54,798 nt of DNA, taken from Lysobacterales bacterium (GTDB lineage: Bacteria > Pseudomonadota > Gammaproteobacteria > Xanthomonadales > SZUA-36). The notes under the pieces are model-generated. The model did not search any database. It was not told the DNA's origin and saw only the letters and a list, made by a program, of their open reading frames with translations. The stretch covers positions 1-54,798 of the forward strand of contig JABDPF010000050.1 of assembly GCA_013042915.1 (NCBI GenBank). Direction: 5' to 3'. A program made the translations under genes and the position numbers. Each line of letters opens with the position of its first letter. Positions within the stretch are counted from its first letter, which is position 1. This document shows positions 5,509 through 32,961 of this stretch, in pieces.

Positions 5509-5540
5509 ACGCGGCTCCGGGTTCGGAGCCGCGTTTTTTT
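5509..5540 (+). terminator. Intrinsic terminator of tRNA-Leu
   Basis: ACGCGGCTCCG (5509-5519) pairs with CGGAGCCGCGT (5524-5534) around a GGTT loop and runs into seven T residues (5534-5540). The stop codon of the converging phosphatase gene (5539-5541) overlaps the T-run, so the same stem is also the first structure downstream of that minus-strand message, though without a U-tract in that direction. Confidence 0.9.
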
Positions 5541-7176
5541 ATGGCTTGGCCTCACCCACGACTTCGCCCAGCACCTCGCCAACCGAACCGGACGGAGGCA
5601 ACACGCCCAGGTAGGCGCTCAGGGTCGGCGCCACATCGCGCGGCGCGACCGGGCGGTAAACCGACGTGCGCGGCACGCCCGGTCCCGAGAAGATCAGCGG
5701 TACGTGGGCATCCGCCGGGTAATGGCTGCCATGGGTCGCGGCGTCTCCTTGTGTGTCGTAGCCGAAAAACCAAAAAGGCTCGGCCACGACATACACGTCG
5801 CCTGAGCGTTGGGGGTGAAAGGCATGGGCGACCGAGCGGGCCAGCGCCGTGGCCGGCAGGTTGCCCTCCAGCAGGTCGGTTCGCGTGAAGGCCGCCCGAA
5901 CGCCGTCGAGTTTTACGACTTCGCGTGCCAGCGCCACCTCGGCATGGGTTCGGCTGATGCCGGCTCGGCGCAGCGCCTCGAGATCCAAAAACAGTGACGG
6001 GCGGCTGAATGCGGCAATCAGGCGCTCATCGGTCTCGAAGTATGTCGACAGAAGATCGTTGATCGGGCCCAGCATTTCGGCGGTGCCGATGCGACCGCCC
6101 ACGAAACCGTGCGTTCCGGAATACTCCGGCGTGGCCTGCACGCCATGATCGGAAGACAGGACAACCAGGGTATTTTGCAGGCCCACGGCCTGGTCCACGG
6201 AGGCCAACAAGGCCGCGATGACCCGGTCCAGCCGCAACAGGTTGTCCTCGGCCTCCAGGCTGTAAGGGCCGTAGGCGTGCCCGACGTAATCGGTAGCGGA
6301 GAAACTGACCGAAAGATAGTCGGTCGCCCCGCGCTGGCCGGGCTTTTCCGCCTCGATCAAGGCCTGGGTGAAGGAGAGCGTCAGTTCGTCCGCCCAGGGT
6401 GAGTAACGCAGGTCGGAGAAATAGCGCCCTGAGGTCGAGTCAGACATAACGTGGGGGAAGGTGATACCCAGCTCGCCCCGCGGGACTTCAAACGGCCGAT
6501 CATCGCGGTCGACCGCAGCGTAGGATTCATGGTCCGCCAAGAGGCTCCAGGTCTGGCCGGCGTAGGCCGCGGCCAGATCACGTTCGTTCCAGGCCTCCAC
6601 CCATTCGGGGTGCTCACGGTGATACCAGGTCGTGGTGGTGTAGCGCCCCGTTTGGGTCGAGTACCAGTAGGCCTTCCCGCCCCTGCCCGCCAGGATAATG
6701 GCGCCCCGATCCTTGGTCGATACACCGAACGAGCGAGACGCACCGCCGGTGGCCAGGATGAGTTCGTCCGAGAAAGTGCTGGACGTCAGGCGAAGTGGTG
6801 AGCGCCCGGTGCGGGTGGTTTCGTCGACGAACGGCGACTGCTCGTCCTGGAGGCAATTGACGTGCTCACTCCGTTCACGATCCCACCATGAATTGGACAC
6901 CATGCCGTGTTGTGTCGAGTTCCCACCGGTAGCCAGTGTCGCGTGGCCCACAGCCGTCATCGTATTGGCGTGTCGATAGCGCGCGTTGGCGTAGACCGTA
7001 CCGTGTTCGACCAGGTACTGGAAACCGCCCTCGCCGAATCGGTCGAAGTGGCGCCGGATCACGTCAGCACGCAGTTGGTCAACGGTGATTTGCAGCACGA
7101 GATCGGGTTTGTCGGCCTGCAAGGGCGATACAAGGAAAAAAAATAAAAATATTATTTTCAGATAGTTACTAGTCAT
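5539..7176 (-). CDS. PafA-like alkaline phosphatase family protein
   Basis: The 545-residue product is a predicted secreted metal-dependent phosphomonoesterase or phosphodiesterase of the alkaline phosphatase superfamily. An N-terminal signal peptide (hydrophobic IIFLFFFLVSPLQA, cleavage near residue 21) precedes the catalytic domain. Visible active-site elements are Asp33 in TVDQLRAD, nucleophile Thr74 in NTMTAVGHATLATG, the PafA-type Lys155-x-Arg157 in STKDRG, the metal ligands Asp296/His300 in SATDYVGHAYGP and Asp343-His344 in SSDHG, and a C-terminal His in THGSHYP. The KxR pair points to the phosphate-irrepressible PafA group, which lacks the Arg166 of E. coli PhoA. The 5' end is unusually AT-rich. 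Confidence 0.88.
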   Translation of the reverse strand: MTSNYLKIIFLFFFLVSPLQADKPDLVLQITVDQLRADVIRRHFDRFGEGGFQYLVEHGTVYANARYRHANTMTAVGHATLATGGNSTQHGMVSNSWWDRERSEHVNCLQDEQSPFVDETTRTGRSPLRLTSSTFSDELILATGGASRSFGVSTKDRGAIILAGRGGKAYWYSTQTGRYTTTTWYHREHPEWVEAWNERDLAAAYAGQTWSLLADHESYAAVDRDDRPFEVPRGELGITFPHVMSDSTSGRYFSDLRYSPWADELTLSFTQALIEAEKPGQRGATDYLSVSFSATDYVGHAYGPYSLEAEDNLLRLDRVIAALLASVDQAVGLQNTLVVLSSDHGVQATPEYSGTHGFVGGRIGTAEMLGPINDLLSTYFETDERLIAAFSRPSLFLDLEALRRAGISRTHAEVALAREVVKLDGVRAAFTRTDLLEGNLPATALARSVAHAFHPQRSGDVYVVAEPFWFFGYDTQGDAATHGSHYPADAHVPLIFSGPGVPRTSVYRPVAPRDVAPTLSAYLGVLPPSGSVGEVLGEVVGEAKP

Positions 7177-8756: not shown

Positions 8757-9986
8757 TCAGCCGCAACCCCCGCCGGTCGGGGCGCGCTTGAGTTCCAGTT
8801 TTACTTTCGGCGTGAACTCGGCCTCGTCATGGGGCACCGGTTCGGAAGCCGGATGGCGGGCGCCGATCGCCAGGTCGAAACGGAACGCGGGTTCGTCCGC
8901 GGAGCGGTTCATCACGTAGCGGTCACGGACGAAGTGTTCGTCGCCGAAGCTGCGAATCCAGCCGTTGACGCCACCTTCGAGTATATAGACGTTGGGCAGG
9001 CTTTCCGCCCGTAGGACTTTCCAAGCCTCGGTGGCGCGTTGCTCGTCGTTGCTCATCGTGACGAACACCGTATTGCCAGGCTCCTGCATCAGCTTTTCGG
9101 ACATGGCTTCCAGGTCCCGCAGGGACGCGTGCCGCGCGTCGTGGATGTGGAACAGGTTGTAATGCGCCTCCTCGCGGACATCCAGCATAACGGTCTTGAT
9201 GCGCGAATCGTGCACCAGGCCCAACAACTCGGCCGGTTCGATCTGCACCATCCGCTGTTCCAGCAGGGCGCCCTGCTCTTCCGCGATCATGTCCCACCGA
9301 TCCGCGTTTGAAGGCTGTCCCAGCACCAGCACGGCCACGGCCAGTGCGGTAAGCGCGCCCGCCGCCGGCAGTGCGCGGCGCGGTGCCTTCCGGGCGGTCT
9401 CGCCCCCCACGGCGGCCTCGACTTTTTCCGCCCCCCAGAACAGCATCAACGCGATCACGACCACCGCCAGCACGACAGTTCCGTAGCTGACGCTGAACAG
9501 TTCGGGCAGCGTGAAGCGCCCCATGAACGAACTCTCGAAGAACACCGCGAACTGGCTGACCGTTTCGCCGAACAGGAAAATGCCAACCAGGACGCCCAGC
9601 ACGAAGAACACGCCATCGACTTTGCCGGTCGCCATTGCCACCAGCGACGTGCCGGGACAGAATCCTCCGACGATAAATCCGACGCCCATGATCAGCCCGC
9701 CGACGATACCCGGCCACAGATAGGTCGGCGGCACCCAGATGAGGTTGTAATCGAGCAGGCCGAGCGCCGAGGTGAGAAAGATCAGGGTCATCGCCACGAT
9801 AATGGCCGTGAACATGACTTTGAACACCGTGAGATCCTTGAAATAGAACTGCGCCGCCAGTTTTTTTGAGTTGCCGAATCCGGCCGATTCCAACGTCGCG
9901 CCAAAGGCTATGCCCACCAGCAGGTACACGAAGTAAGCGCCGTATTGACCCAGCAGCTCCGTCAGTGGAAGGGGAAATATTGTCAT
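8757..9986 (-). CDS. YeeE/YedE sulfur transporter fused to a Cys-less rhodanese with GGGCG tail
   Basis: The 409 residues begin with a YeeE/YedE channel: about six membrane helices and the conserved Cys110 in GGFCPGTS, where family members handle thiosulfate. Lys/Arg-rich loops (NSKKLAAQFYFK, and ARKAPRR before helix six) predict that both ends face the periplasm. A rhodanese-like domain spans about 245-345, but its active-site loop reads VTMSNDEQRAT, so the catalytic Cys is missing. The protein ends PTGGGCG, and Cys110 and Cys408 are its only cysteines. A Gly-rich Cys tail recalls the SoxY carrier arm; that role is inference. It is the last gene of the operon, 47 bases after the short YeeE gene. 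Confidence 0.88.
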   Translation of the reverse strand: MTIFPLPLTELLGQYGAYFVYLLVGIAFGATLESAGFGNSKKLAAQFYFKDLTVFKVMFTAIIVAMTLIFLTSALGLLDYNLIWVPPTYLWPGIVGGLIMGVGFIVGGFCPGTSLVAMATGKVDGVFFVLGVLVGIFLFGETVSQFAVFFESSFMGRFTLPELFSVSYGTVVLAVVVIALMLFWGAEKVEAAVGGETARKAPRRALPAAGALTALAVAVLVLGQPSNADRWDMIAEEQGALLEQRMVQIEPAELLGLVHDSRIKTVMLDVREEAHYNLFHIHDARHASLRDLEAMSEKLMQEPGNTVFVTMSNDEQRATEAWKVLRAESLPNVYILEGGVNGWIRSFGDEHFVRDRYVMNRSADEPAFRFDLAIGARHPASEPVPHDEAEFTPKVKLELKRAPTGGGCG

Positions 9987-10033
9987 TGTCTGAGGGCCTC
10001 CTTCGATGCCCTTTCAATTGGTTTTTTCAGGCT

Positions 10034-10552
10034 CTAGTTCCAGAAGCGCCGCAGGAAATACGCCAGCGCATAAGCGCCGGCGAATACCGCGAACATGAAC
10101 GCCCAACTGCCCACCGACAGGACCGCGCCGCCCGACAGCGCCTGCCCGGAGGTGCAGCCGCGGGCCAGGCGCGCGCCGTAGCCCATCAGGATGCCGCCGA
10201 GAAAGGCCATGATCCAACGGGTGCGGTGACTGATCCGGGGTCCCTTGTTGGTCTCGACGCGCATGCGCCGCCCATAGAGGCCCGAGATCACGCCGCCCAG
10301 AAAGGTTCCGGCCGTCAGGTACACGATCCAGCTGTCGAGCGGGTTCGTGTTACCGCCGGCCATCTTCAGCAGATAGGGCACCTGGTCGATGTGTTCCGGC
10401 GCCACGAAGTTCTGGCCGTAGACCAGCAGCCGGTTGAGACCGCCCGAGGCGCCCAGCCCGGTGCCGGTGATGAAAAAGGCCAGGAACAGCACGATGCCCA
10501 GCAGTGCACCGGCCAGGTAGGGATTGATATAAGGTCTTGCCCGCTCAGACAT
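10034..10552 (-). CDS. Short YeeE/YedE family membrane protein
   Basis: The 172-residue membrane protein has about four hydrophobic helices and the motif ARGCTSGQALSGGA, whose Cys133 (the only cysteine) corresponds to the conserved sulfur-handling cysteine of the YeeE/YedE family. Half-length members like this often come as a pair with a second YeeE protein and may form a transporter together; the larger partner is the next gene. Its ATG overlaps the 3' end of the cytochrome gene by eight bases, which implies co-translation. The transported species, most likely thiosulfate or another small sulfur anion, is inferred from the family and the operon. Confidence 0.87.
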   Translation of the reverse strand: MSERARPYINPYLAGALLGIVLFLAFFITGTGLGASGGLNRLLVYGQNFVAPEHIDQVPYLLKMAGGNTNPLDSWIVYLTAGTFLGGVISGLYGRRMRVETNKGPRISHRTRWIMAFLGGILMGYGARLARGCTSGQALSGGAVLSVGSWAFMFAVFAGAYALAYFLRRFWN

Positions 10553-12800
10553 GGGCCTTCTCCTCGACCGAACCAGGATTCGATCCGTTGTGTATTTCGA
10601 CGTCTTCCCAACCGGTCACCATCGCCTTGATCCCGGACAAGGGGGTCTCGCCGGTGGTGGTCAGGTAGACGTGCATCACGATGAACGCCGCAAAGGCCCA
10701 CGCCAGGAAGGTGTGCAAGGGTCCCAGCAGCGGTAAGCCGCCAAGCGCCTCGCCCAGTGCCGGCCAGTACTGCATGCCCCAGATCAGGAACCCGGTCACC
10801 ACCTGCGCCGGCAGCAGGATATTGATGATTGCCAGGTAGGTGACCTGCTGCAGCGGGTTGAGCCGGTTCTGCCGGGTTTTTTCGATCGGGTGCTCCTGGC
10901 CGGCGAAGATACCACGGCTATAGAACATCGCCTGTTCAAAGGCCCGCGCAAAGAAACTATCCGGGTCCGGGAAGAACCGTTTGATGGTCCCGCTGGCCAC
11001 CGTGTAGAACAGCGCGAGTGCGGCGTTGATCAGCAGGATGAAGCCCAGGACATTGTGCACCTGAACCACGTACGCGAAGCTGAACATGCCGAACAGATGC
11101 GGCTTGTGAATGATCAGGCCGGTGACAATCAGCATCATTATGGTGCCGGCCTGCAGCCAGTGCCAGATACGGTCGTACGCGTCGTACATCCTGACCGGGC
11201 GCGTCGGCCGGTCCGGCGAACCCCAGCGACGACGTGCCAGGAAGCGAAGGAAGCCGTGCACGCTGACGCCTAACAGGACGCCAAAGAACATCAGCAGCCC
11301 CGCCAGGTCGACCAGCGGAATACCGTCCAGGCCCAGCACATAAAAGCCGGCCTCGTGGGTGGACGGCAGATAGGCAATGCCACCGCCGTTGACGCGTTGG
11401 ATATGGCCGGTCTGGGCAATGCCTGATTCGGGGGCCCACGCGGGCAGCAAGCCTCCCGGCGCGTTGCCGGACAGGGCGAATGACGCGGCCAGAATGGAAT
11501 CCTCGCCGTGGCAACTGCGGCAGTCGCGCGTGGCCCAGCGGCCGTTGACGACCCCGTGACTGACCGGGTATGGCGTGACCTCACCGGCCAGCTGAACGTT
11601 CGGGTAACCGGCGGCTTCCAAATGCCGGCGGACCACGTCCCGAGCATCGCCGATTTCCAGGCCGGCGGACACCTCGGGATGCAGGCCACCGTCCGGGTAA
11701 AGCACTTCCGCGAGGCGTTCGGGCGGGATTCGTTCGGCCGGGTCACCGGCCGTCCAGAACCAACTGCTGACCAGGTTGAATGGCGCCAGTTTGGCTTCTC
11801 CACCGACGTTTTTCCGAACCAGCATGACCGGGCGGAATCCGTGAATCAGGCTGTCGGCGCGCGCCGGGTCCCCCTCCACGTCGCGAAATTCCCGCTGCGG
11901 ATGGCCCTGTGGGCTGACCAAGGTCCAGTCCACGGCCTGCAGCGCCGGGCCGTAAAGTTCGGGTACGTGGCAGGATTCGCAGGCAAGCGATGCGAAATGG
12001 CGGCGCTTGTACGGCAGCCACTGGTGCACGGCCGTCGCCTCGTGGCACGACTCGCAGCGACGCATGCTGTTTTCGCTCTCAAACGCGCCCAGGCCGTGTC
12101 GAGAGGCGCCCTTGGCCAATTGATGCAGCGGGCGCTGCAGGTAGTCGGCGTGGGTCAGGCGGCGCGGCTCAAAGGCCAGGTGATCCGGGCGGCTTTCCTC
12201 GCGTTGGCGGTAATACACCGGGTTGTTCAGGGAGTAATGGCAGTTGACGCAGTTCACGACCCGGTCGGCGTGCACGTCGAACGGCCGGACGAGCTCGTTC
12301 TTTCCCTTGATGTTGAGGCCGCTCTGGGAAATTCGCTGGGCGGAAAAAATCTGTCCGGTGCGATCCGTCATGCTGAAATCGACCGGGTGCGGATCGACCG
12401 TCAGGGGAACGTCCAGGCGGTTGCTGACCACTTCGTGGCAGCTCGCGCAGTTGCGGTCCATGGGCTTGTGGATGTCCATCACGCCGGCAGCCAGGCTGCC
12501 GTCCGTTTCGAACAGTCCGGCCTGCCAGACCTCCGGCGCCTCGAAATCGCTGTGGCATCGCAGGCACGGAATTTCCTGATTCTCGAACACCCCCGCCGCA
12601 GCGTGGTCGCTGGAATCCCGAATGAACTCCGTGTCGTGGCAGGCGCCGCAAGTCCGCATGCTGGACATCGGCTTGCCGCTCTCCCGCACCAGCACGCCGT
12701 CTGCATCGACGATCGCGAACGCCGGGTGAAAGGTGTTGGCGGCGAACACCGTCTGCGCCGCGAGGATCCCGACAAGCATCAGGAACAGGCGTGGTTTCAT
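10545..12800 (-). CDS. Heptaheme cytochrome c fused to cytochrome b561-type membrane domain
   Basis: The 751-residue fusion has a signal peptide (cleavage near VFA-A at 20), then seven CXXCH heme-c sites with first Cys at 51, 79, 118, 184, 249, 274 and 427. A membrane section follows: one helix near 497-515, then a Ni/Fe-hydrogenase-type cytochrome b domain from about 540 with candidate heme-b histidines His547 (RIWHWL), His582 (QVHNVLG), His696 and His710. The architecture implies electron transfer between the quinone pool and the periplasm in one chain. It overlaps the octaheme gene upstream (four bases) and the YeeE gene downstream (eight bases). Direction of electron flow is not decided by sequence. 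Confidence 0.88.
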   Translation of the reverse strand: MKPRLFLMLVGILAAQTVFAANTFHPAFAIVDADGVLVRESGKPMSSMRTCGACHDTEFIRDSSDHAAAGVFENQEIPCLRCHSDFEAPEVWQAGLFETDGSLAAGVMDIHKPMDRNCASCHEVVSNRLDVPLTVDPHPVDFSMTDRTGQIFSAQRISQSGLNIKGKNELVRPFDVHADRVVNCVNCHYSLNNPVYYRQREESRPDHLAFEPRRLTHADYLQRPLHQLAKGASRHGLGAFESENSMRRCESCHEATAVHQWLPYKRRHFASLACESCHVPELYGPALQAVDWTLVSPQGHPQREFRDVEGDPARADSLIHGFRPVMLVRKNVGGEAKLAPFNLVSSWFWTAGDPAERIPPERLAEVLYPDGGLHPEVSAGLEIGDARDVVRRHLEAAGYPNVQLAGEVTPYPVSHGVVNGRWATRDCRSCHGEDSILAASFALSGNAPGGLLPAWAPESGIAQTGHIQRVNGGGIAYLPSTHEAGFYVLGLDGIPLVDLAGLLMFFGVLLGVSVHGFLRFLARRRWGSPDRPTRPVRMYDAYDRIWHWLQAGTIMMLIVTGLIIHKPHLFGMFSFAYVVQVHNVLGFILLINAALALFYTVASGTIKRFFPDPDSFFARAFEQAMFYSRGIFAGQEHPIEKTRQNRLNPLQQVTYLAIINILLPAQVVTGFLIWGMQYWPALGEALGGLPLLGPLHTFLAWAFAAFIVMHVYLTTTGETPLSGIKAMVTGWEDVEIHNGSNPGSVEEKAHV

Positions 12801-14278
12801 CGGCCTGCCTCCTGAGTGGAAAGTGCCCGGTGATGCAGCAGAGCCTCGCGGCTACCCCATTTCATCGGATCGCCCGGGTAGCCGATGGCCACCCAGTCGA
12901 TACAGCCCCGCTCGCAATGGCAGGACTTGCACTGCAGTGCGTCTTCCTTGGGCGCCACCATGTGGGTTTGCGGCCAATACATCGAGGTGGACGCGAAGCC
13001 GTATGCGCCGCTGTACTCCATGCCGGTGATTTCCGAACCCAATCGTAACGCCTGGTCCCAGTCGAACTCGCGCCAGAACCCGCCTTGGCCCGCCGTGACA
13101 GGCTGCATCAGGTAGTTGTATTCGACATCGTAGGGCTGCACCGCCAGGTGCACTTTGAAGGGCCAGATCTTGGCGTCGGGGTCCCGGATGTCACCCTTAG
13201 GGTGGTTCAACGGGGTAATCGGTCCGTCGGTGACCGGGTCACCCAACAGGTACCGCTCGGCCAGGCCGTTGTACCAGATAAACTCGGGCTTCAGGCTTTT
13301 TTCGTAGATAAAGCTGCCCTTGATTTTCAGGTACTCGTGGGTGTCTTCCTCGCGATCGGCGTCTCCCGCTGTTGACCAGTCCCAATGCGTCTTGGTGGCC
13401 TGGTGAACGGCCACTTCTGGAATATGGCAGGTCTGGCAGGCCACCGTGTCGGTGTGGGCGTTGATGCGCTGGTCGGCATGCAGTTTGGGGCTGTGGCAAT
13501 CGGTGCAGGCAATCTGGTTTTCGTTGTCGACGCTGACCGAAATCGAGCGACCGCCAATCACGTGGTCCTCGGTTCGATGGCAGTCGATACACTGGAAGTC
13601 GTAGCGCCCCATGTGCACATCGACGTGTTCCTCCGGGTAATACAGGCTCTCGTCGAGATCGCCGTGCTTGACGGCGTTACCGCCGCCACCGCGGAAATGG
13701 CAGCTACCGCAATTCTCGCGGGTCGGCAGCCCGACGCTTTTCGCCGCGGCCACCAGGTCCACGCCCTCGACCGGCAAGCCCATCTTGCCCTTGCGATAAC
13801 CCCCGCTGTGGTCATGGCAGGCCAGGCAGTCCACATTGGCCGTGTTCTCGAAATCGAAGGTCTCGTCTTCCCAGCCATATCCGGCATGGCACGATGTGCA
13901 ACTTTCCCAGTTGCCCTGGATGCCGATGCAGAAGTTGTTGATGGCGTTCTTCTTTCCGACCGACACGGCCTCCGCGCGCCCTTCCATCTCTACCGGCCCG
14001 GACTCCCAGCGCCAGTGGGCGGTGTGGATCACCTGTTCGGCTGAATCCTCGTGACACGCCAGGCAGGCCGCGGTGACCTGCTGGCCCGTCTCGAAAGGAC
14101 CCTCAAGCAGGCTCGAATGATCAACCGGCGCCGCGCGGCGCGGCACGCCATCCCACGGACTATCGGGAATCTGCCCGGCGACGGTGTCGTCGATCTGGGT
14201 GAAATACCAGATCGGAATGGCCACCAGCGCCAGGATGAAAACGAGGCCTGCGATCCAGCCTGTTTGCCTGTATTTCAT
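12797..14278 (-). CDS. otr: Octaheme tetrathionate reductase-type cytochrome c (OTR family)
   Basis: The 493-residue periplasmic cytochrome is anchored by one N-terminal helix (about 8-27). Eight CXXCH sites begin at Cys72, 127, 151, 190, 230, 258, 281 and 450. The stretch GKKNAINNFC before the second heme holds the lysines expected to supply the unusual axial Lys ligand of the active-site heme in this family. The Shewanella homologue reduces tetrathionate and also nitrite and hydroxylamine in vitro, so the physiological substrate here is open. Three extra cysteines (117, 455, 459) lie near hemes 2 and 8. It is the first gene of the operon, with a CRP-like promoter upstream. Confidence 0.9.
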   Translation of the reverse strand: MKYRQTGWIAGLVFILALVAIPIWYFTQIDDTVAGQIPDSPWDGVPRRAAPVDHSSLLEGPFETGQQVTAACLACHEDSAEQVIHTAHWRWESGPVEMEGRAEAVSVGKKNAINNFCIGIQGNWESCTSCHAGYGWEDETFDFENTANVDCLACHDHSGGYRKGKMGLPVEGVDLVAAAKSVGLPTRENCGSCHFRGGGGNAVKHGDLDESLYYPEEHVDVHMGRYDFQCIDCHRTEDHVIGGRSISVSVDNENQIACTDCHSPKLHADQRINAHTDTVACQTCHIPEVAVHQATKTHWDWSTAGDADREEDTHEYLKIKGSFIYEKSLKPEFIWYNGLAERYLLGDPVTDGPITPLNHPKGDIRDPDAKIWPFKVHLAVQPYDVEYNYLMQPVTAGQGGFWREFDWDQALRLGSEITGMEYSGAYGFASTSMYWPQTHMVAPKEDALQCKSCHCERGCIDWVAIGYPGDPMKWGSREALLHHRALSTQEAGR

Positions 14279-14324: not shown

Positions 14325-14375
14325 TGCTAAATTAGTAGAACATTAATAGCGGATATATATGTGACTCAGGTCACG
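14325..14375 (-). promoter_or_regulatory. CRP-type promoter of the sulfur operon
   Basis: TGTGA-N6-TCACG at 14360-14375 matches the CRP consensus. On the minus strand, TACTAA (positions 14337-14332) is a candidate -10 that would start transcription near 14325, placing the CRP-like centre about 42 bases upstream, the spacing of class II activation. A small palindrome TTTTAGC-TTTT-GCTAAAT (14315-14332) covers the predicted start and could be an operator. No good Shine-Dalgarno is seen before the ATG at 14278. Confidence 0.5.
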
Positions 14376-31996: not shown

Positions 31997-32025
31997 AAGA
32001 TATGTCCCCTGATTCCGGCGGTACG

Positions 32026-32961
32026 ATGGACCTGCAGGCCGCGACCCAGCACCTGCGCCTGCTTTCCGACCCCACTCGCGTTCGGCTATTGCTGCTGCTG
32101 GACCGTGAAGAATTCAGCGTGGCCGAGTTGGCCGCAATCACGCAACTCGCCCAACCGCGCGTCTCAACACACCTCGCCCGCCTCAAAGAGGCCGGGCTGG
32201 TCGCCGATCGCCGCGACGGGGTGTTTGTGTATTATCGAATCGCTCGGCAGGATGCCGACGGTGCACTCGCTTCGTTGTGGCGACTGTTGCGGAAAAACAC
32301 GCAAGACCCCCTCGTGCAGCAGGACCTGGACCGGGTGCTGCAGGTGCTCAATCGGCGCAGCGGCAAAGGCACCTGGGCCGACAGCGTGGCTGGCGTGATG
32401 GAACGACACTATTCACCGGGGCGGACCTGGGAGGCCACGGCACGCGGCATGGTGCATCTGATTGACCCGGGCAGCGTTCTCGACATCGCCTCGGGAGACG
32501 GTGTACTCGCCGAATTGCTCGCGCCGCGGGCTGACAGCATCGTGTGCCTCGACATCAGCCGGCGGGTGGCGGATGCCGGGCGCAAACGCCTGGCCGGCTT
32601 TACCAACGTCAGTTTCGAAGTAGGCGACATGCACCAACTGCCGCTCGAAGACGCGCAGTTCGATACCGTACTGTTGATGCACGCACTGACTTACACCCCG
32701 GATCCCGAACGTGTTTTTGACGAAGTCAACCGGGTATTGAAGCCCGGCGGTCGCCTGTTGGCCGTCACGCTGGAGCAGCACCGCCACGAAAAAGCGGTTG
32801 AGCCCTTCAATCACGTCAATCTGGGATTCAGCCGTCGGCAATTGGAATCGCTGGCCACCAAAGCCGGGCTGGACGTGCTCGCCTGCACCGTTTCCGCCGT
32901 CGAGAAACGCAGCCCCAACTTCTCGGTTTTGGCCATTTCCGCGGTCAAACCGATTCACTGA
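32026..32961 (+). CDS. ArsR-family regulator fused to SAM-dependent methyltransferase (SahR-like)
   Basis: The 311-residue protein joins an N-terminal ArsR winged helix (about 1-75; [31 protein letters not shown]) to a class I methyltransferase domain with the SAM-binding motif VLDIASGDG near 150. This architecture next to metH matches the SahR family, which senses S-adenosylhomocysteine and represses methionine-cycle genes. The ATG at 32026 is preferred because homology begins at [18 protein letters not shown] and GGCGGT precedes it; an ATG eight codons earlier (32002) is possible but follows the operator directly without a Shine-Dalgarno. No metalloid-binding Cys motif is seen. Confidence 0.85.

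Follow-up and report, generated by a model that had tools for sequence, protein, structure and literature searches.

What an OTR-type octaheme cytochrome c acts upon when its gene lies in one operon with a membrane-bound cytochrome and a YeeE-type transporter is the question raised by contig JABDPF010000050.1 of a Lysobacterales bacterium (GenBank assembly GCA_013042915.1; source genome of 2.69 Mb, 96% completeness). The window analyzed here is this entire contig of 54,798 nucleotides. On its minus strand lie the genes for the OTR-type cytochrome P0001 (12797–14278; an open reading frame, or ORF, of 493 amino acids), the heptaheme/cytochrome b fusion P0002 (10545–12800; 751 amino acids), the short YeeE protein P0003 (10034–10552; 172 amino acids), and the YeeE–rhodanese protein P0004 (8757–9986; 409 amino acids). 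The first two genes overlap by 4 bases, the second and third by 8 bases, and a spacer of 47 bases (9987–10033) separates the last two; the ORF calls agree to the base with the arrangement reported in an initial annotation, whose protein assignments are likewise upheld by eight CXXCH motifs in P0001, seven in P0002, and matches to the family profiles. We consider the chances about even that these proteins constitute a quinone-linked inner-membrane redox system for protein-bound sulfur, in which OTR acts on sulfur held by a cysteine arm and exchanged with a transporter split between the two YeeE proteins.

Judged by their arrangement, the four genes form a single conserved unit that recurs more than chance would allow, because 70 of the 80 loci retrieved by way of the fusion protein repeat the gene order on one strand. 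Of the ten that remain, nine run off a contig end, which leaves L105 as the one true exception; some of the 70 complete-order loci themselves lack part of their sequence at a contig end or next to unread bases. These loci derive from a scan with the fusion alignment that returned 116 relatives, of which 80 were kept (60 read as Chloroflexota and 20 as Pseudomonadota), and the carriers include Vibrio gelatinilyticus and Parasulfuritortus cantonensis. The recurring cluster that the initial annotation had proposed to seek by a neighborhood search is therefore found, and in two phyla. An apparently broken OTR in L148 was rejected as such, since its reading frame runs into unread bases. Among 299 genomes of the order, 29 contain a P0001 match at E 1e-20 or better; in the neighborhoods of the best 20 of these genomes, the full set is present in 13 and truncated by contig ends in 6, and the remaining one (L091) holds an OTR of 46–49% identity without the other three genes (this order set, L072–L091, and the fusion set, L092–L171, share several contigs). 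A P0004 profile run against 398 genomes of the phylum found three full-length proteins, in the window, G909, and G912, and three short PmpB-like ones; G909 and G912 carry all four genes, their P0004 tails reading GGCA and GGCG, respectively.

The distribution of the unit points to movement between phyla. A tree was built from 69 operon OTRs (longer than 430 amino acids, L148 left out) and five hand-picked outside OTRs; in it, the Pseudomonadota need two changes over the stated bootstrap range, one of their OTR clades being nested deep among those of Chloroflexota. By the account of this tree, the unit has been exchanged at least two times between Chloroflexota and Pseudomonadota with its gene order kept.

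P0001 itself has the hallmarks of OTR. In addition to its eight heme motifs, it scores 561 bits against TIGR04315 (cut-off 375) over profile positions 2–440 of 440, matches PDB 1SP3 at E 1.8e-146, and aligns C117, N114, and K204 to Cys64, Asn61, and Lys153 of the latter. C117 is kept in 70 of 70 rows, and all three residues in 19 of 19 rows of a smaller alignment; Cys64, Asn61, and Asp150 are residues to which roles in OTR are ascribed. The catalytic heme 2 site is complete, comprising the second CXXCH (the C127 motif), K204 at the position of the lysine ligand, and C117 as the neighboring cysteine; a lysine ligand to OTR heme 2 is described in PMC11024163. The operon OTRs nevertheless differ from other OTRs in their clade, their membrane attachment, and their partners. 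By hydropathy, P0001 has an N-terminal membrane anchor and lacks a C-terminal transmembrane (TM) helix, which at the cut-off used is predicted in 0 of 68 operon OTRs (longer than 430 amino acids, more than six CH, L148 left out) versus 35 of 56 other OTRs. A quick tree of every third of these 68 together with the 56 other OTRs (longer than 430 amino acids, at least seven CXXCH) places the operon OTRs in a clade of their own. Whereas the OTR of Shewanella oneidensis interacts with the soluble cytochrome STC (PMC4484225), the operon OTR is accompanied by the heptaheme–b fusion and the split YeeE. OTR has also been reported in Anaerolineae bins (PMC7887784).

The fusion protein P0002 runs from an N-terminal signal-like segment through a heptaheme OTR-like domain and a TM helix into a PhsC/HydC-type cytochrome b. 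Its membrane domain scores 87 bits against PF01292 (cut-off 30); its best family model, NF011582 (PhsC), gives 132.7 bits, under the cut-off of 204, and TIGR04314 (MmcA) gives 30 bits, under the cut-off of 250, so that P0002 belongs to neither family by these models. In three MAFFT modes, the seven hemes align to OTR hemes 1 and 3–8 (heme 1 went uncounted in three of 30 rows), and heme 2 is absent from 30 of 30 fusion sequences, the cysteine and asparagine positions being gapped and the lysine not kept. An hhalign comparison of the heptaheme domain with OTR, unmasked, gives a probability of 98.8 and E 1.1e-16, and the C-terminal TM helix of those OTRs having a separate cytochrome b has its match in the helix just ahead of the b domain. 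The heptaheme domain thus looks like an OTR-like domain that lost its catalytic heme, and would therefore be a wire rather than a second enzyme. A precedent is MmcA, a heptaheme OTR relative that lacks the same heme 2 and serves as an electron conduit (PMC11024163); MmcA is archaeal (Methanosarcina) and sits in an operon with Rnf, whereas P0002 is fused to a cytochrome b. P0002 resembles PhsC in its membrane domain and may function as PhsC does; it differs by its fused heme domain and by having no molybdoenzyme among the four genes. The same c/b layout is seen in CbcL-type fusions: CbcL joins a multiheme c domain of nine hemes to a quinone-linked b domain and serves Fe(III) reduction, and it is not known to have a YeeE or OTR partner. 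Within the fusion family, a subclade (L101, L103, L099, and relatives) has a first heme motif of the form CX3CH (e.g., SCGGACH) instead of CX2CH.

Where the initial annotation saw paired YeeE channels, the two proteins instead look like a single transporter split into an N-terminal and a C-terminal half: P0004 covers positions 8–188 and P0003 positions 176–309 of the 310 in PF04143, a complementarity on which two separate channels were rejected. Such a division is described for PmpAB, in which PmpB is the N half with the equivalent of TsuA Cys91, PmpA the C half with that of Cys293, and a heterodimer is proposed (PMC11582611). Here as well, two proteins supply the two halves with one conserved pore cysteine each, C110 of P0004 (75 of 75 rows; matching Cys91) and C133 of P0003 (76 of 77 rows; matching Cys293); P0003 aligns to TsuA chain residues 239–329, cysteine on cysteine, and the profile match agrees. 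The sulfur-type transport suggested by the initial annotation is supported. Both remain far below the TsuA models: P0003 scores 36 bits with NF052577 (cut-off 400) and 30 bits with NF041049 (cut-off 645), and P0004 scores 18 bits with NF052577. Compared with PmpAB and TsuA, the N half P0004 adds a TM helix, a rhodanese domain, and a GGCG arm.

The rhodanese domain read by the initial annotation is present (PF00581), while the catalytic cysteine is missing: the loop is itself conserved, mostly as SNDE, and holds a cysteine in 0 of 73 sequences, the window included (two rows without residues there left out), so that an active rhodanese sulfurtransferase is rejected. At its C terminus, window P0004 reads GGGCG, with the cysteine C408. 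In 69 of 70 orthologs with an intact 3′ end (four rows open there left out), a cysteine falls among the final six residues of a glycine-rich tail, at or beside the terminus in the manner of a SoxY arm; nearly all read GGCG, with GGGCGG in L114 and GGCS in L143 as variants and L150 as the exception. C408 occupies 70 of 70 rows and, with C110, marks the only P0004 columns having cysteine in most rows. A simple test for glycine-rich cysteine tails, which catches 52 of the P0004-type proteins, finds 4 others among 2937 ORFs of at least 100 amino acids in the same loci. The feature held in common with SoxY of SoxYZ is the C-terminal GGCG(G) cysteine arm; P0004 differs in being anchored on a transporter half, in having a rhodanese domain in place of SoxZ, and in giving no match to the SoxY model PF13501 at E 0.01, no homology being detected. 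A structural model (mean predicted local distance difference test score, pLDDT, of 78) comprises the membrane helices, a further one at 205–222, a rhodanese fold at 247–355, and a loose tail whose last eight residues fall below pLDDT 50. The rhodanese and the arm are probably on the periplasmic side, as judged from loop charges that mostly fit: loop 195–206 averages 3.7 lysines plus arginines, and loops 1–9 and 75–89 average 0.03.

Taken together, these features, read directly in the sequences (the gene unit, the YeeE halves, the arm, the missing rhodanese cysteine, the heme 2 missing from the alignment, and the FNR-like boxes of many proteobacterial homologs considered below), suggest how such a machine could operate; from them we infer complex formation, the membrane side of the arm, its loading, the electron path, the direction, and the substrate. 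A sulfur unit, either sulfane sulfur or a thiosulfonate group, would be held on the C-terminal cysteine of the flexible P0004 GGCG arm in the periplasm. The arm would shuttle this sulfur among the mouth of the split YeeE (C110 and C133), the cysteine-less rhodanese pocket, and heme 2 with C117 of OTR, while electrons would pass between OTR, the heptaheme wire, cytochrome b, and the quinone pool. About fifteen c hemes thus seem to wire the arm sulfur to the respiratory chain. The coupling of quinone electrons to a sulfur compound put forward by the initial annotation is borne out in part, by the quinone-linked cytochrome b family and the periplasmic hemes. In the favored direction, which is anoxic reduction, quinol would reduce the arm-bound sulfur, and sulfide or thiosulfate would be released.

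Similar parts recur around other OTRs. In 56 other OTR loci, a cytochrome b relative adjoins OTR in 37 and a carrier-like tail in 8. Six of the loci (L174, L175, L180, L181, L183, and L187) encode, directly upstream of OTR–cytochrome b, a protein of about 182 amino acids that ends in GGC or SGC (e.g., L181:774-1319:+) and begins with a hydrophobic stretch; those of L175 and L181 were checked as DUF302, and this glycine-rich-tailed protein looks like another carrier arm. SoxY adjoins OTR in L201 (8573-11829, tail GACG) and L203 (7481-11769, tail GGCG), both with a triple-rhodanese gene upstream; L203 also has SoxZ, and there OTR and cytochrome b form a single fused protein of 736 amino acids. 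L178 (9242-14469) encodes in a row OTR, cytochrome b, a c-type cytochrome, YeeE, and a triple rhodanese. All eight tail or SoxY loci, together with L178 and L053, make up one ten-row clade of the quick OTR tree. The tail test flagged five further ORFs among 2017 in these 56 loci, apparently spurious. In lucinid symbionts, soxY-S3 and soxZ adjoin otr (PMC11237559). A wider reading, which we hold a little less firmly than the one for the operon itself, is that a further pathway for the redox chemistry of protein-bound sulfur stands beside Sox and Dsr, in which a transporter-anchored GGCG arm feeds a multiheme enzyme, the substrate of the OTR family may be carrier-bound sulfur (on SoxYZ, DUF302-type proteins, or the YeeE–rhodanese arm), and a heptaheme sister domain may have become a quinone wire.

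Regulation bears on the direction of electron flow. In 8 of the 15 proteobacterial operons analyzed, the 250 bases before OTR contain an FNR/ANR-like box of one mismatch or fewer, where shuffled upstream sequences yield a mean of 0.23 boxes and a maximum of 2 in 300 shuffles; of the other OTR genes, 7 of 55 have such a box (operons with fewer than 200 bases upstream, or with an OTR match starting after residue 20, were excluded). In the window, CGTGACCTGAGTCACA at 14360–14375 (strand not assigned), 81 bases before the OTR start, forms a CRP/FNR-like palindrome and a candidate regulator site; as a CRP-type site it has one mismatch (shuffle p 0.009), and it sits near where homologous operons have their FNR-like boxes. 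Near the operon in 42 of the 80 loci stands an ArsR-type gene with one conserved cysteine (e.g., L130:4062-4418), and 43 of 45 such copies are same-strand genes upstream of the operon, with a median spacing of 7 bases (family checked on one); this regulator may sense reactive sulfur. A single upstream site common to all operons was rejected, given the ArsR-type gene in 42 of 80 loci and the lack of FNR-like boxes in 42 non-proteobacterial operons. Two points, the FNR-like control and the published reductase activities of OTR (PMC4484225; PMC11024163), tip the balance somewhat toward reduction rather than oxidation.

A number of observations weigh against the proposal. The eight FNR/ANR boxes come mostly from related metagenome-assembled genomes of Lysobacterales and other gammaproteobacteria and are not independent, none of 42 non-proteobacterial (Chloroflexota) operons has one, and the best FNR-type match in the window is a poor box with four mismatches. 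For the heptaheme domain, hhalign with CXXCH masked falls to a non-significant probability of 1.3 and E 0.039, in the same register, and the mapping onto OTR, though likely, leans largely on the heme motifs. Foldseek with the P0002 model matched, at low E, cytochrome b only and nothing for the heme domain, in a model of pLDDT 69 whose heme domain, lacking its hemes, has low confidence. With the P0004 model, Foldseek returned rhodanese-fold chains and no TsuA among the 50 matches listed. The resemblance of the P0004 tail to the SoxY arm appears to be one of design, not demonstrated descent, and the stretch of P0004 beyond its final TM helix, expected to lie outside, is likewise rich in lysines plus arginines, with an average of 3.9, beside 4.7 aspartates plus glutamates. 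Of the other OTR loci, 48 of 56 have no carrier-like tail (several being short contigs), among them a 19-row OTR clade nearly all of whose members have cytochrome b. The four genes, moreover, code for no cytoplasmic sulfur partner.

The strongest rival, which we regard as rather unlikely on balance, is the same machine run in reverse, with OTR oxidizing the sulfane sulfur of the arm in the manner of SoxCD, by up to six electrons, into the quinone pool. It draws on the SoxY genes next to OTR in L201 and L203, with SoxZ in the latter, and on gene neighborhoods. Around the 80 operons, the flanking genes fall into 45 clusters, of which 18 representatives were viewed in full and some searched by family. 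The L088/L144 operon lies downstream of genes for a PF02872 5′-nucleotidase-family protein (SoxB-like as read), DUF6691, a PF04143 half, and DsrE, with SoxY on the same contig; 5 operons have SQR-family genes nearby, and 4 have genes of the DsrE2 and DsrC families (one representative of each identified). Parasulfuritortus cantonensis, a carrier, oxidizes sulfur. The OTR of S. oneidensis, too, has been credited with oxidizing thiosulfate to tetrathionate (PMC6548844). The distribution of SoxY divides the evidence: among 24 genomes tested, several of them incomplete, the model matched 7, and in the 23 that carry the operon (the 24th, G350, carries other OTRs) SoxY is found in 6 of 9 from Pseudomonadota, which favors oxidation, and in 0 of 14 from Chloroflexota, which does not. 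With SoxY in only 6 of 23 operon genomes, Sox is therefore not required, so far as these genomes show. In the source genome, searches for SoxY and DsrA gave no match; in one of them no control genome matched either, although the same SoxY model matched the 7 genomes just mentioned. Oxidation is opposed by the FNR-like boxes, which suggest anaerobic expression (although denitrifying sulfur oxidizers would also fit them), and by the description of OTR as a reductase in the papers cited above.

Sulfur import for assimilation or iron–sulfur (Fe–S) assembly, with the hemes serving only to return the arm cysteine to its earlier redox state, is improbable. Its support comes from Chloroflexota genes read as SufC-like (13), SufT-like (14), and SufR-like (14) near some of the 80 operons and from genes read as Isc-like near the L141 operon; such Suf neighbors may, however, reflect common descent, a chain of 15 hemes would be costly for such a task, and neither TusA nor TsuB is among the four genes (the flanks were not searched for either). 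Hardly more credible, and if anything less so, is the reduction of nitrite, hydroxylamine, or nitric oxide by OTR, with the YeeE–rhodanese protein as a sensor or unrelated. The S. oneidensis OTR does reduce nitrite and hydroxylamine (PMC4484225), and FNR-like boxes fit nitrogen respiration equally, but in 70 of 80 loci the fusion gene has the YeeE halves and the arm alongside it, with one true exception, sulfur carriers are encoded in a part of the related OTR loci, and no nitrogen genes were recognized among the flank clusters, in which no search was aimed at them. That the chalcogen is selenium, or the substrate another oxyanion, is very improbable, for the YedE-family matches that hint at it (P0003 with NF033796 at 45 bits, P0004 with TIGR04112 at 24 bits) fall far under their cut-offs of 350 and 200, the further pointers being an OTR-family selenoprotein listed in PMC13188914 and, near one operon, a Type III SQR (L106:18004-19236) matching the selenoprotein-subtype model NF049943 at 650 bits.

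In the window, the operon stands among what read as housekeeping genes: those upstream we take to be purA, hflC, and hflK, and an aromatic aminotransferase gene, identified by family search, lies downstream. Elsewhere in the window, 5539-7176 encodes a PafA-like alkaline phosphatase (437 bits, under the family cut-off of 650), and at 32002-32961 an apparent ArsR-type regulator domain, as read from the sequence, forms the beginning of a larger protein, immediately ahead of a metH-like gene. For promoter-like sequences, the operon region gave 2 matches versus 1.3 in shuffled sequence, which is near chance, and a viral-contig scan with P0001 gave no match. Full-text searches of open-licence PMC papers found none describing the four-gene composition, in keeping with the initial annotation, which knew of no characterized system of this kind; the set is apparently undescribed so far.

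If the proposed system of OTR, heptaheme wire, and arm-bearing split transporter is real, OTR, an orphan enzyme known since 2004, would gain a testable role, and the annotations of OTR would change if it proved to act on arm-bound sulfur. Single-residue handles on function would be offered by the cysteine of the arm, by heme 2, and by the split channel. A sulfur redox step would, in addition, become visible in the Chloroflexota carriers, in which the SoxY search found no candidate among the 14 tested.

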